Assembly (NCBI RefSeq): GCF_001625215.2
Contig: NC_030387.2
Coordinates: 26,238,517-26,302,516 of the forward strand
From: Daucus carota subsp. sativus
Lineage: Eukaryota > Streptophyta > Magnoliopsida > Apiales > Apiaceae
Length of the DNA: 64,000 nucleotides
Direction: 5' to 3'
In this document: positions 58,687 to 62,780 of the stretch, in pieces
How the letters are laid out: the number at the start of each line of letters is the position of its first letter
How positions within the stretch are numbered: position 1 is the first letter of the stretch
Notes under the pieces: generated by a model
Told to the model about the DNA's origin: nothing
Databases searched by the model: none
The model's input: only the letters and a program-made list of their open reading frames with translations
Program-made: the position numbers and the translations under genes

Positions 58687-58887
58687 GGAACAGGTCCACA
58701 GCCACCGGTGGATAAAGACCGGTTTCCAGCCACCAAATCATAACCACTCATTGCTGTGATCCTACGGTTGAAAAAGAGACTCCCCGCAATGAAACATTGA
58801 AACCCCGCAATGAAACATTGCGGGTATACTTGTCCCCGCAATGAATCATTGCTGGGATACAAGTCCCCGCAATGTTTCATTGCTGGG
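58687..58887. repeat. Left end of a TA-flanked element and palindrome cluster 1 (4 copies)
   Basis: GGAACAGGTCCACAGCCACCG follows the (TA)n tract, with AGCCACC repeated 30 bases later. Four copies of the palindrome CCCCGCAATGAWWCATTGCGGGG follow at 58782, 58803, 58834 and 58865; the last three are spaced exactly 31 bp. The first copy lacks its right half. No matching right terminus was found. Confidence 0.75.
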
Positions 58888-59638
58888 AGTCTCCTTTTTT
58901 TCCTTGGACCCTTTTACCCCTCCTTTCACATATCATATGCCTTGTAGAGTTTATTTAACATTTTAAATTATATTAAAAATATTGTTAATATTAGAAGTAA
59001 TGAGAAAATTTTAATTTTTCTTAGTACAATATATGAATAATTTTCTATCTAATTTCTATATATTTTTATCTTATTAAATATTTTATGTCTTTTTGCTATA
59101 CAAATAATTTTACTTATTTGAACACTACTGCTTGTTTCTTAAATATATCGAACATATGTTTGAACTACATAGTTCACATGCTCTTTTAAGGTTGATTTAC
59201 TTTTTGCAGCTAAAGTTGAATTATTTTATTACAAATTATTCATTTTTTCCAATTCTCTTTTGTACTGGTAGTGTTTTCAAATATACTCGAAAATATTAAA
59301 ATCAAAGATGAATATCGAAATTATGAATTAACATCACTTAAATTGGTCGAATATTATTAAGAACATATAAGAAGAGTTTTTTTGACAAATTATTAACTTT
59401 TTCCAGTTCTCGTATGTAAAAGTAGCGTTCTGAATATATATTCGAACAAATGCAAATCAATAATACTCAAACAAAAACAAATCAAAGAAAAATATCTGAA
59501 TTATTAATAAATGTTACTTAAATTAGTGAAATATTAGTAAGAACACATATATTAATATTTTTTAGCTAAAGTAGTATAAATTCTTACAATTTATTGAACT
59601 TTTTAAAATATTTTAAACAAAACAAGTAATATTTTCAT
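58888..59638. other. AT-rich spacer between palindrome clusters
   Basis: No gene. AT-rich, with two loosely similar halves (TTCGAACAAATGCAAATCAA and ATACTCGAAAATATTAAAATCAA contexts, and ATTAAGAACATA words), suggesting an old internal duplication. Confidence 0.35.
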
Positions 59639-59871
59639 CCCCGCAATGTTTCATTGTGGGGATAGTTTACATAATTTTCATCCCCGCAATGATTCATTGC
59701 GGGGTGTTAAATTTGATTAACAAGGTGGTTGGATGAGGTGGATAGTTTTTGTTGAAAAAGATACCCGTCATGAGTCATTGTGGGTATGTTTTTTCTAAAA
59801 TAGACCCCGCATTGATTCATTGCGGGGTGTTTTTTTTTTTTAAAAGATACCCGCAATGATTCATTGCGGGG
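59639..59871. repeat. Palindrome cluster 2 (5 copies)
   Basis: Copies at 59639, 59682, 59764, 59805 and 59850 of CCCCGCAATGATTCATTGCGGGG. The copy at 59764 is degenerate (CCCGTCATGAGTCATTGTGGG). Spacing is 41-82 bp. Minus-strand ORFs here simply read the repeated palindrome. Confidence 0.85.
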
Positions 59872-60196
59872 TTTATTTTTTTTACTCCAAAACAACCAAA
59901 TAAAGATTCGAACCTTGTACCTTGCGTTTTCAAGACAAGTAAAGAAACCAATTTGACAATGGATGTTTCACTGATAGTTGTCCACTAGGATTGAGATATA
60001 TAACTTTTGAAATAAAATTCAATAATAAATAAATTCAACAAATATATTGAATTTGATAATGTAACTTAATTATTAATTTAATTTAATTAATAATTTAATT
60101 AAATTATTTTTATATTCGGGCGTTTTAATTAATTTTATACTCTATAAAAATCAATTTTATATTAAAATAATTTAATTTAATTAATAATAAATAATA

Positions 60197-60451
60197 AAAT
60201 GACATGGGTGAGGTAGATAGAGTAATTTTGTTGTTACGGGTAGGTAAAAACATTAATTACGCTCCATGCAATAGTTCATTGCGGGTATTAAAAGTACCCA
60301 GCAATGTTTCATTGCGGGGTGTATTAGTACCCGCAATGTTTCATTGCGGGGAGTATTAGTACCCGCAATGTTTCATTGCGGGGACCGTAATTAATGTTTT
60401 TTACCTACCAGTTACAACAAAATTACTCTATCTCCTTCACCCATTTCATTC
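60197..60451. repeat. Fold-back (inverted arms ~65 bp) enclosing palindrome cluster 3
   Basis: Left arm 60197-60262 (GGGTGAGGTAGATAGAGTAATTTTG..) is about 90% identical to the complement of the right arm 60386-60451. The loop is four palindromes CCCGCAATGTTTCATTGCGGGG at 60264, 60297, 60330 and 60362, the last three being 33-bp tandem units. It ends 50 bases before the ATG of the FAR1-related gene, so it forms or borders that gene's leader. Confidence 0.85.
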
Positions 60452-60500
60452 TTTGATTTTGAACGTTTTGAAGATAAAAAAAGGTACTTCTCCTTAACTT

Positions 60501-61569
60501 ATGGCATATTTATTTGATAATGATTCTAGTTCTTCTAGTGATCATGATAATTTCGATTATGCTTCCGTTGCAAATCCTTTTATGCGTAGGAAAAAAGCTA
60601 ATGTTGTAAATGAGGTAATTTATGTTGAAGAAGATGATTATGTTGATAAAGGAAAAAAAAAAGGTTATTTTTGTCGATGATGAAGATGATTGTCATGATA
60701 ATAGTGGGAAAAAGGATGATAATACAAGTTTTGGAAGAAGTGAACGGAAAAATGATTATGATAATGTTGATGTTGGGGAAAAAATACATGATTTTACTTT
60801 TTCCAATATGAATGATGTTGTTCCTTGTAGTGGCATGTTGTTTGATAATTTAGATGAGGTGGAAAGATTTTATCGGGATTACGGGCGTAGGGTTGGATTC
60901 GAGGTTATCATTAGAAATACTCATAGGCATTCTAGAAGCAATGAAGCTTGTTCACGTATGTATATTTGCCGGCTAGGTGGGAGAGTATGTTCAAGTTCGG
61001 CTAATGTTGATGAGGAATTGAATTTAAAAAGGACTCGTGATACAATTGATCGGACAAAATGTAAGGCTCGAATTTCGGTTGTTCATAGAGTGAAGACGGA
61101 TAAATGGGAAATAACCACAGTAGAGTTAGAACACAATCATCCAATGGTTACCTCAGACAAAGTACAATTCATGCAAAGATCGCGTAATATAGGTCCGGTT
61201 GCCCGATCTTTAATTGAGACGTTGAACAAATCGGGAATAGGACCCTCAAAAGTGTTGAAAGTGATGGGGGAAGCTCTCGGTGGATTAAAGAATGTTGGTT
61301 TTACTAATCAAGACATACGTAATGTTTTACGTAACATTCGACGTCAAGTGTTTGATGGTGGTGACGCAATGTCCGGGTTGGCTTTGTTAGAGGAGTTAAA
61401 GGGGAATAATTTCGGGAAGTTTTTCTATCGGTTTGATATGGATGGCGAGAATCGGGTTAAGGCTTTGGTGTGGGTTGACCCTCGATCGGCAAATGAATAC
61501 AAGAATTTTGGTGATGTGGTTACATTCGACTCAACTTATCGGACTAATAGGTATTGTATGATTATATAA
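60501..61569 (+). pseudogene. FAR1-related (FRS/MULE-derived) gene, frameshifted and truncated
   Basis: FAR1/FRS proteins are domesticated Mutator transposases that act as transcription factors. The natural start is probably ATG 60501 (MAYLFDNDSSSSSDHDNFDY), but this frame shifts at a run of ten A (60653-60662) into the frame that continues VIFVDDEDD; nine A would keep it open. Then comes a FAR1 zinc-finger domain (FYRDYGRRVGFEV at about 60868; Cys, Cys and HNH ligands to about 61140) and the start of the MULE transposase domain (DVVTFDSTYRTNRY at about 61520). It stops at 61569; a GT at 61551 could be a donor, but no continuing transposase exon is found downstream. The remaining two thirds and the SWIM finger are absent. 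A sequencing error in the A run is possible. Confidence 0.85.
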
Positions 61570-61735
61570 AGCATTGATCATAAAGTGCATAATTTTTTAA
61601 ATTTATTTTTTTTGAATAAATTTTCAAATAACAAATTCGTATTCAAAAAAAATATTATAAAAATATATTTTAAAAAATCTTTGAAAACATATCAAAACAT
61701 AGCGTATAAATTGAACGGACTAATAAGCTTTAACT

Positions 61736-61784
61736 ATATATATATATATATATATATATATATATATATATATATATATATATA
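61736..61784. repeat. (TA)n microsatellite
   Basis: Pure TA run of about 48 bp that forms the left flank of the next MITE. Confidence 0.95.
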
Positions 61785-62160
61785 GGGTTACTCCAGTGAG
61801 AACTTCTTAAAATGAGAACCATGAGAACTTCCTTAATTTATCATATTTTGGCTAATCTAAACATCAAACTAGTGGGTACCCAATATAAAAAATGTATATA
61901 AAACTAGTCTCTTCCTAGCTAGTCTAAAAAAAAAATTCAAAAAAAAATTCAAAAAAAAAAGTCCACTGCCACATCATCAGTGATTTTATTTTTTTATTAT
62001 TTTTTTATTTTTTTTTCGACTAGCTAGGTGGAGACCGTAATTATATACATTTTTTGTGAAGGTGCCCCTGGCGGGGCCCTTCAAATGAATGAGATATTGA
62101 TAAATTAAACAAGTTCTCACGGTTCTCATTTTAAGAAAGTTCTCATTTGAGCAAGTGCCT
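61785..62160. mobile_element. TA-microsatellite MITE (GAGAACTT ends)
   Basis: Left end GGGTTACTCCAGTGAGAACTT and right end, complement, GGCACTTGCTCAAATGAGAACTT. Both continue CTTAAAATGAGAACC..GTGAGAACTT..TTAATTTATCA. Flanked on both sides by long (TA)n. 376 bp without ORF. The interior has an inverted pair around the CTAGCTAG-like words GACTAGCTAGG / CCTAGCTAGTC. Confidence 0.88.
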
Positions 62161-62197
62161 ATATATATATATATATATATATATATATATATATATA

Positions 62198-62720
62198 GGG
62201 GTTTGTTCAAATACAAACCAACTTTATCATAAAAACCTAAAAACCAATTTCAAAACTAAACAAATATCCCCCCAAACTCTTAAAAACTAACAATATCACC
62301 CCCCCTAGCTTTGCCATCAACTTCCCCAAACTTACACTTTCCACCCCGCCACGTCACCACGCCACGTCAGCGCAGGGGGTCCCCCACTGCTGACGTGGCA
62401 CTGCCACGTCAGCACTGGGTCACACCCACTGCTGACGTGGCACTGCCACGTCATCTGCCACGTCAGCACCTGCTGACGTGGCACTGCCACGTCATCTGCC
62501 ACGTCAGCAGTGGGCTGACCCAGTGCTGACGTGGCAGCTGATGTGGCAGTGCCACGTCAGCAGGTGCTGACGTGGCAGATGATTTCAGCAGTGGACCCCC
62601 TCCGGAAAAATAAAAAAAATAAAAAATAAAAAAGATTGGAGTGCTCATAGCAAAAATGGGAGTGGAAATAGTGGTTTTTAGGTTTGTATGAGAGTGTGGT
62701 TTGTAGTGGAATAAGCCCCT
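62198..62720. mobile_element. TA-microsatellite MITE carrying an ACGT-palindrome array
   Basis: Left end GGGGTTTGTTCAAATACAAACC and right end, complement, GGGGCTTATTCCACTACAAACC; both continue to AAACCTAAAAACC. Flanked by (TA)n on both sides. The interior 62345-62580 is a GC-rich array of GCCACGTCAGC and GCTGACGTGGC words. Short ORFs here read the array and are not genes. Confidence 0.86.
62345..62580. repeat. Array of TGACGTGGCA/TGCCACGTCA palindromic words
   Basis: About eight GCCACGTCA and five or six TGACGTGGC words alternate, forming long inverted pairs such as GCTGACGTGGCACTGCCACGTCAGC. TGACGTGG is the Hex-type site bound by plant bZIP factors. Whether it is used as such inside this MITE is unknown. 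Confidence 0.85.
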
Positions 62721-62780
62721 ATATATATATATATATATATATATAGGAGGAAGATCCTAAGAAAACCCAGCATATCAAGA
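62721..62780. repeat. (TA)n followed by another TAGGAGG..AAAACC terminus
   Basis: (TA)n to 62745, then GGAGGAAGATCCTAAGAAAACC and AGAAAACCGAGGAACCC, a one-sided copy of the terminus layout seen in the neighbouring MITEs. No matching right end occurs within the window. Confidence 0.5.

Follow-up and report, generated by a model that had tools for sequence, protein, structure and literature searches.

Which kind of transposable element occupies the TA microsatellites of a 64,000-bp stretch of carrot DNA (Daucus carota subsp. sativus, contig NC_030387.2, positions 26,238,517 to 26,302,516 of the forward strand; the whole stretch is hereafter called the window), and what do elements with unlike interiors have in common at their ends? 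A first-pass annotation of this DNA had proposed that several miniature inverted-repeat transposable elements (MITEs) shared a terminus layout and inserted in TA repeats, and both points were borne out here by layout tests and by adjacency to TA tracts. Six families, E1 to E6 (all on the plus strand), most probably (roughly 0.8 to 0.9) belong to the Mutator-like elements (MULEs) that target microsatellites, a kind known as SaTar, MuTAnT, MiM, and Micron, and would comprise both non-autonomous members and decayed autonomous ones. This identification was based on six features: inverted ends, fold-backs, a head-to-tail array, a near 10-bp target duplication at E2, an empty site of E1, and an exon encoding a FAR1 domain behind the E5 terminus.

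E1, E2, E3, and E4 were two-ended, while E5 and E6 each had one end found in the window. E1 (34496..34932; 437 bp) was a MITE with inverted ends and AGAACA words, flanked by a 53-bp (TA)n(GT)n microsatellite (34443..34495) on the left, as annotated before, and by a 44-bp TATATATGTATG(TA)n microsatellite (34933..34976) instead on the right. E2 (36528..36845; 318 bp; words GAGAACC/AGAACC) was a MITE located outside microsatellites. E3 (61785..62159; 375 bp; word GAGAAC) and E4 (62198..62719; 522 bp; words ACAAACC/AAAAACC) were fold-back MITEs, the latter with a GC-rich TGCCACGTCAGC hairpin interior. E5 (58687..61734) was a one-sided MULE remnant composed of an AGCCACC-word terminus, palindromic modules, and a transposase exon, and E6 (62746..64000; word GAAAACC) was one-sided and probably also a MULE remnant. 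A 120-bp (TA)n tract (58567..58686) preceded E5, and (TA)25 (61735..61784), (TA)19 (62160..62197), and (TA)13 (62720..62745) tracts lay between E5, E3, E4, and E6. The earlier placement of E3 and E4 inside (TA)n on both sides and of one-sided termini at 58687 and 62746 was confirmed. Microsatellites bordered E1, E3, and E4 on both sides, and E2 on neither. Eight perfect TA tracts of at least 12 bp were present in the window, and the six with a length of at least 26 bp all adjoined one terminus or more (8 of 12 tract sides, two E1 sides reaching the terminus via GT or ATGT repeats), while the 13- and 19-bp tracts had a terminus on none of their four sides. Inspection by eye for extra termini also took in the stretches left of the 58567 and 61735 tracts and those on the outside of the E1 locus, and none was accepted.

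Inverted ends were found in all four two-ended elements, with alignments spanning 40 to 61 columns. Fold-back structure was tested in E3 and E4 only: E3 folded back across almost its full length (71% to its own complement; z -15.8 versus 100 shuffles), and E4 gave z -23.6 in the same comparison, with a long TGCCACGTCAGC hairpin. E3-(TA)-E4-(TA)-E6 constituted a head-to-tail array, in which no member interrupted another within the window.

The flanks of E1 recurred about 0.7 kb leftward as a tandem duplication (90% between 33611-33765 and 34307-34456; 84% between 33754-34105 and 34950-35278). In the left duplicate, the matching flanks enclosed a 29-bp mixed TA/TG microsatellite (33752..33780) without an element, while in the right duplicate they enclosed the 53-bp (TA)n(GT)n, E1, and the 44-bp TATATATGTATG(TA)n. 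The flanks are thus older than E1, since both of them were present in the empty copy, and this paralogous empty site supports the view that E1 inserted into a microsatellite whose repeats are longer in the occupied copy. Leftward from 34442 and 33751, both copies of the locus also displayed an AACCC end facing the microsatellite, which in its opposite strand reads GGGTTTGTTCA and GGGTTTGTCCA with TC(A/C) at +9 and +8, and which is possibly an older terminus. E1 itself lay within a repeat (34268-35485, minus strand) that stands between an A and a T, has TC...CTAG ends with a CCGTGCTTCGCACGG hairpin, and looks like a Helitron from its end signature; the empty-site copy (33611-34105) seems to be a partial second copy of that repeat.

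The ends of E2 were similar, as annotated, but its start fitted better at 36528 than at 36524: both ends then began with GGG, and the first G run fell within a 10-bp target duplication, with TATTTAGGGA (36518..36527) on the left and TATTTGGAGA (36846..36855) on the right. These two 10-mers matched at 8 of 10 positions, and a share of 0.0016 among 200,000 random regional pairs was as good, a value that takes no account of the boundary having been chosen. Target duplications in the Mutator superfamily span 8-11 bp; E2 offers a candidate, and those of the remaining elements would be hidden in the microsatellites.

The sequence comparison covered the ten termini of the six families, a small sample from this one window, with positions counted from the first G. 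The layout comprised G2-4 at +1, TC(A/C) at +10, and a 7-8-bp family-specific word near +16, +33, and +42. Eight of the ten termini had TC(A/C) at +10 (exceptions: E3 left at +8 and E5 at +9), as did 111 of the window's 3354 remaining G runs. Most family words shared an AAC core, and their positions were as follows: (i) AGAACA at 17/33/43 (left) and 17/34/44 (right) in E1; (ii) GAGAAC at 16/29 plus a looser third copy (left) and AGAACC at 17/35/43 (right) in E2; (iii) GAGAAC at 14/30/39 and 16/33/42 in E3; (iv) AAACC at 18/36/44 and 18/35/43 in E4; (v) GCCACC, without the AAC core, at 15/43 with a poor middle copy in E5; and (vi) AAAACC at 17/35 plus a looser third copy in E6.

Four comparisons addressed the regularity of these positions. 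First, with one terminus per family (6 of 10) and a tolerance of 2 bases either way, the highest average self-match for a 7-base word was 6.67/7 at +16/+42, while 400 dinucleotide shuffles reached at most 5.83 and 400 rotations, which preserve the repeats of each terminus and destroy their alignment, at most 6.33. Second, the word match within families summed to 122, while 20,000 permutations averaged 97.1 and went no higher than 116 (0 of 20,000 at 122); using the other ends of E1 to E4, with E5 and E6 unchanged, the sum was 120 versus 96.7 (highest 117; again 0 of 20,000). In this test, the best triplet of the right end of E1 differed from AGAACA, and E5 scored just 16/24. Third, the word-match z was 6.05 at the three sites, 0.2 to 2.9 at eight other offsets, and at most 2.64 in 30 shuffled terminus sets. 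Fourth, a layout score of at least 12 was obtained by 8 of 10 termini versus 2 of 105 (TA)8-GGG sites from public loci taken without an individual origin check (Fisher P 3e-9; some of the ten termini were themselves not behind (TA)8-GGG); the negative control included a wider IMG/VR scan of at least 120 stretches, and the two control sites scoring at least 12 were near-identical.

Coding sequence of FAR1 type was located behind two different termini. The E5 exon (60501..61566) carried a FAR1 DNA-binding domain (PF03101, E 4.9e-17) with a frame shift in an A run at 60653-60662 (two overlapping frames), and it ended at the onset of the MULE domain with a weak match to PF21056 (RNaseH-like ZSWIM, E 0.017). 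Its match to known transposases stopped at AG-GTATTG, and the next DNA had 17.8% G+C, versus 39.7% in the exon; from these two features, the stretch 3' of the exon is a probable intron, which would house the E3-E4-E6 array. Upstream of the exon, E5 contained three clusters of palindromic units of CCGCAATGAAACATTGC type (at least seven units; 58805-60384) and, directly before the exon, an 80% fold-back (60189-60459). The FAR1-like stretch of E6 (63187-63402) was a weak remnant, matching the E5 exon across 22 residues (BLASTP 2e-6) and PF03101 with E of just 0.11. No right end of E5 or E6 was found within the window. The search for inverted partners of the 58687 and 62746 termini likewise came up empty, with best local scores of 23 (self-overlapping) and 19 across about 57001-63900, and none appeared in a whole-window BLAST at E 0.05, the E5 palindromic units aside. 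The Jittery group is defined by an N-terminal FAR1 domain plus a C-terminal SWIM or CCHC finger (PMC6446971); the N-terminal feature was present in the E5 exon, and the C-terminal part was not found in the window. A search of IMG/VR for relatives of the exon confirmed none (three pattern matches failed tblastn), and PDB returned two weak irrelevant matches (E 0.094 and 0.3).

These observations can be put together in a mechanism. Every family would have a Jittery-like MULE transposase of its own to move it. Cleavage would take place at a common end, formed by the conserved G run plus TC(A/C) at +10 in the outer terminus, and the FAR1 domain would bind the word at its three sites near +16, +33, and +42. 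Because one DNA-binding specificity governs all three copies, they would change together from family to family. Insertion would yield a 9-10-bp duplication concealed inside the TA repeat, and the flanking repeats would lengthen afterward. The FAR1 domain is a WRKY-GCM1-type zinc finger, and FHY3 and FAR1 bind the 7-bp CACGCGC (PMC6000157). That the words are transposase-binding sites, as the first-pass annotation had suggested, is plausible, and for binding by the FAR1 domain the odds appear slightly better than even. The wider proposal of a two-part address, with an outer part common to the families and an inner part of three family-specific word copies rewritten in concert at fixed places, is about an even bet; if the three words are so rewritten, then the spacing would be set by the architecture of the transposase while its FAR1 domain changes the word.

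Several points weigh against the identification and the layout. The right flank of E1 was no simple 9-10-bp duplication of its left flank, so that no clean target duplication could be read there, and the E2 duplication was imperfect, with a boundary chosen to fit the ends. The MULE domain (PF10551) was barely touched at the end of the E5 exon (first 16 of 99 positions, E 0.2). With the array inside the putative E5 intron, there may here be an exception to a published rule, by which no element of this kind interrupts another, if E5 counts as such an element. E5 also fitted the layout poorly (score 9, second site degenerate), and the left end of E2 scored 11, below the threshold of 12. The sites had first been chosen partly for their internal repeats, a bias at which the rotation and permutation tests are aimed, and permutation counts were lowish at four of the eight control offsets (20, 27, 87, and 150 of 5000). 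A blind scan of the window gave 22 places scoring at least 12 (20 shuffles: mean 3.25, highest 9), and these included 8 termini, 8 places overlapping tandem arrays, 2 at the end of E6 or inside E4, and 4 unexplained ones. The terminus layout is real, yet it is insufficient alone to call an element, because 14 of these 22 places were not termini.

The first-pass annotation had assigned all the elements to one transposition machinery with freely replaced interiors. On such a reading, a single transposase would recognize no more than the G run, TC(A/C) at +10, and an AAC core in loose form, around which the words would drift, and interiors would be swapped at will. The TC(A/C) that 8 of the ten termini carry at +10, the AAC core in most words, and the local alignment scores of only 19-40 between different elements speak for it. 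At the same sites, however, the words of one family agreed better with each other than with those of other families (0 of 20,000 permutations), the E5 word AGCCACC lacked the AAC core, and two separate FAR1-type stretches stood behind different termini, which makes a single transposase unlikely. The claim of one machinery was accordingly not upheld: the word was specific to each family and matched itself within each terminus, and such words, together with two FAR1-type stretches, fit related yet family-specific transposases. Free replacement of interiors is one possible reading, and internal deletion from different parent MULEs accounts equally for unlike interiors. The annotation had also considered that the ends might belong to unrelated known superfamilies with other target duplications; they did resemble a known superfamily (Mutator, with 9-10-bp duplications), and all of them the same one.

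A different route of spread, by homologous recombination of circular intermediates with microsatellite filler rather than by cut-and-paste into TA repeats, was put forward for SaTars (PMC5907723). The flanks of E1 would suit it, in that the left one is (GT)n, the right one is TATATGTATG(TA)n, and the two make no 9-10-bp duplication relative to the empty site. Against it stands E2, whose near 10-bp duplication suggests that ordinary cut-and-paste operates in the group; moreover, microsatellites mutate quickly enough to mask a target duplication. Spread through circular intermediates is therefore quite unlikely.

The TA flanks alone would also accommodate Stowaway/Tc1-mariner MITEs with a TA target duplication. 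The Stowaway-type end is CTCCCTCC, and no such end was present: the ends started with G2-4, the E2 duplication was near 10 bp rather than 2 bp, and the linked coding sequence was of FAR1 type. On these grounds, the Stowaway/mariner identity was rejected as very improbable. Chance, namely AT-rich DNA beside TA tracts with coincidental word repeats, could draw on the 14 of 22 high-scoring places that were not termini, but it conflicts with the folds and the layout tests, and the empty site together with the inverted ends refutes it outright, leaving a negligible probability.

Elsewhere in the window, the stretch 38273-38509 consisted of about nine tandemly arrayed 26-bp units TAATTGTGCCTCTTAATTGAGGGCGT. 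Judged by its gene translations, the window resembles nuclear DNA of a plant, and ordinary plant genes in it presumably encode a MYC2-like bHLH factor (6056-8038), a PYL-like receptor (15016-15714), a UDP-glycosyltransferase (27164-28617), a mitochondrial carrier (30009-31244), and an AT-hook protein (56849-57457).

If MULEs of this kind, as we read E1 to E6, carry the layout generally, the terminus alone would reveal the recognition word of any such MULE, and its transposase could be matched to the word. The fixed three-site layout with family words gives a testable prediction of which FAR1-type transposase binds which ends, and the layout plus TA flanks could help detect these MITEs, since poor conservation of the inverted repeats is frequent among them. 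A pattern scan (TA tract, G run, and AGAACC) returned six near-identical loci in IMG/VR, unrelated by eye, and five loci in GTDB, bacterial by title and likewise unrelated by eye; a literature search with four terminus strings gave no match. No description of the three-site word layout was found in the parts of the literature covered here, including the available text of PMC12071656, PMC9569675, and PMC2528002, and so the regularity of the terminus (G run, TC(A/C) at +10, and three words) is the part for which these sources offered no published description.

The comparison with known systems began with SaTar, found in guayule, rice, sorghum, and citrus, with 15 guayule families, 11 of which had 10-bp duplications (PMC5907723). 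SaTars resembled the elements here in being small, of MULE type, and with inverted ends, in occupying TA and other microsatellites, in forming head-to-tail arrays of unrelated families, in having some copies with 10-bp duplications, and in having defective autonomous MULE relatives; they differed in that the available text described no three-site word layout for them and in that the array here probably lay within a MULE remnant. MuTAnT of Medicago was found in perfect TA repeats in 204 of 218 cases, with 9-nt duplications for the other 14 (PMC4486113), and E2, outside a microsatellite, resembled this published minority of SaTar and MuTAnT copies. MuTAnT and AutoMuTAnT further shared with E1 to E6 the TA-targeted MULE-type MITEs, the fold-back bodies, and a Jittery-like transposase, and TA repeats were commoner at occupied than at empty sites, as at E1 (PMC4486113). 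The mask of the MuTAnT terminal inverted repeat, GGGGTTTGCTAGAACA, had the same G run and AGAAC word, but with AGAACA from +11 instead of about +16, in a comparison that covers 16 bases. Micron of rice, a MITE in TA repeats whose ends resemble an autonomous rice MULE (PMC5907723, PMC12550479), had been cited as a precedent by the first-pass annotation, and aptly, being treated as a MULE derivative in PMC5907723. MULE-derived microsatellite MITEs also comprise the 15 MiM families of carrot itself (PMC8227079) and the Ac-mMITEs of pineapple (PMC8449440).

Outside the microsatellite-targeted group, three systems were compared for their repeated motifs: (i) Muta1 of Aedes aegypti, a MULE in which a short motif at the end precedes subterminal repeats (nine copies of a 12-bp unit), such repeats being present in 10 of 12 families with long terminal inverted repeats in the same study (PMC5225508), is an animal MULE with many tandem units at 3-4-bp spacing, unlike the three short words here, whose spacing is uneven yet constant, and microsatellites go unmentioned in the available text, unlike the TA setting here; (ii) CitMule of citrus, a Jittery relative with FAR1, SWIM, and MULE domains, has degenerate subterminal motifs that may serve transposase binding according to its authors, while the text at hand mentions no fixed spacing, family-specific word, or TA targeting (PMC4334395); and (iii) VANDAL/VANC of Arabidopsis has short motif copies diverging jointly with a binding protein (PMC5735166), but VANC is an anti-silencing factor and the motifs are tandem repeats in non-coding parts rather than three fixed terminal sites. 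Taken with the SaTar and MuTAnT comparisons, E1 to E6 match an already described kind, the MULE-derived, microsatellite-targeted MITEs.

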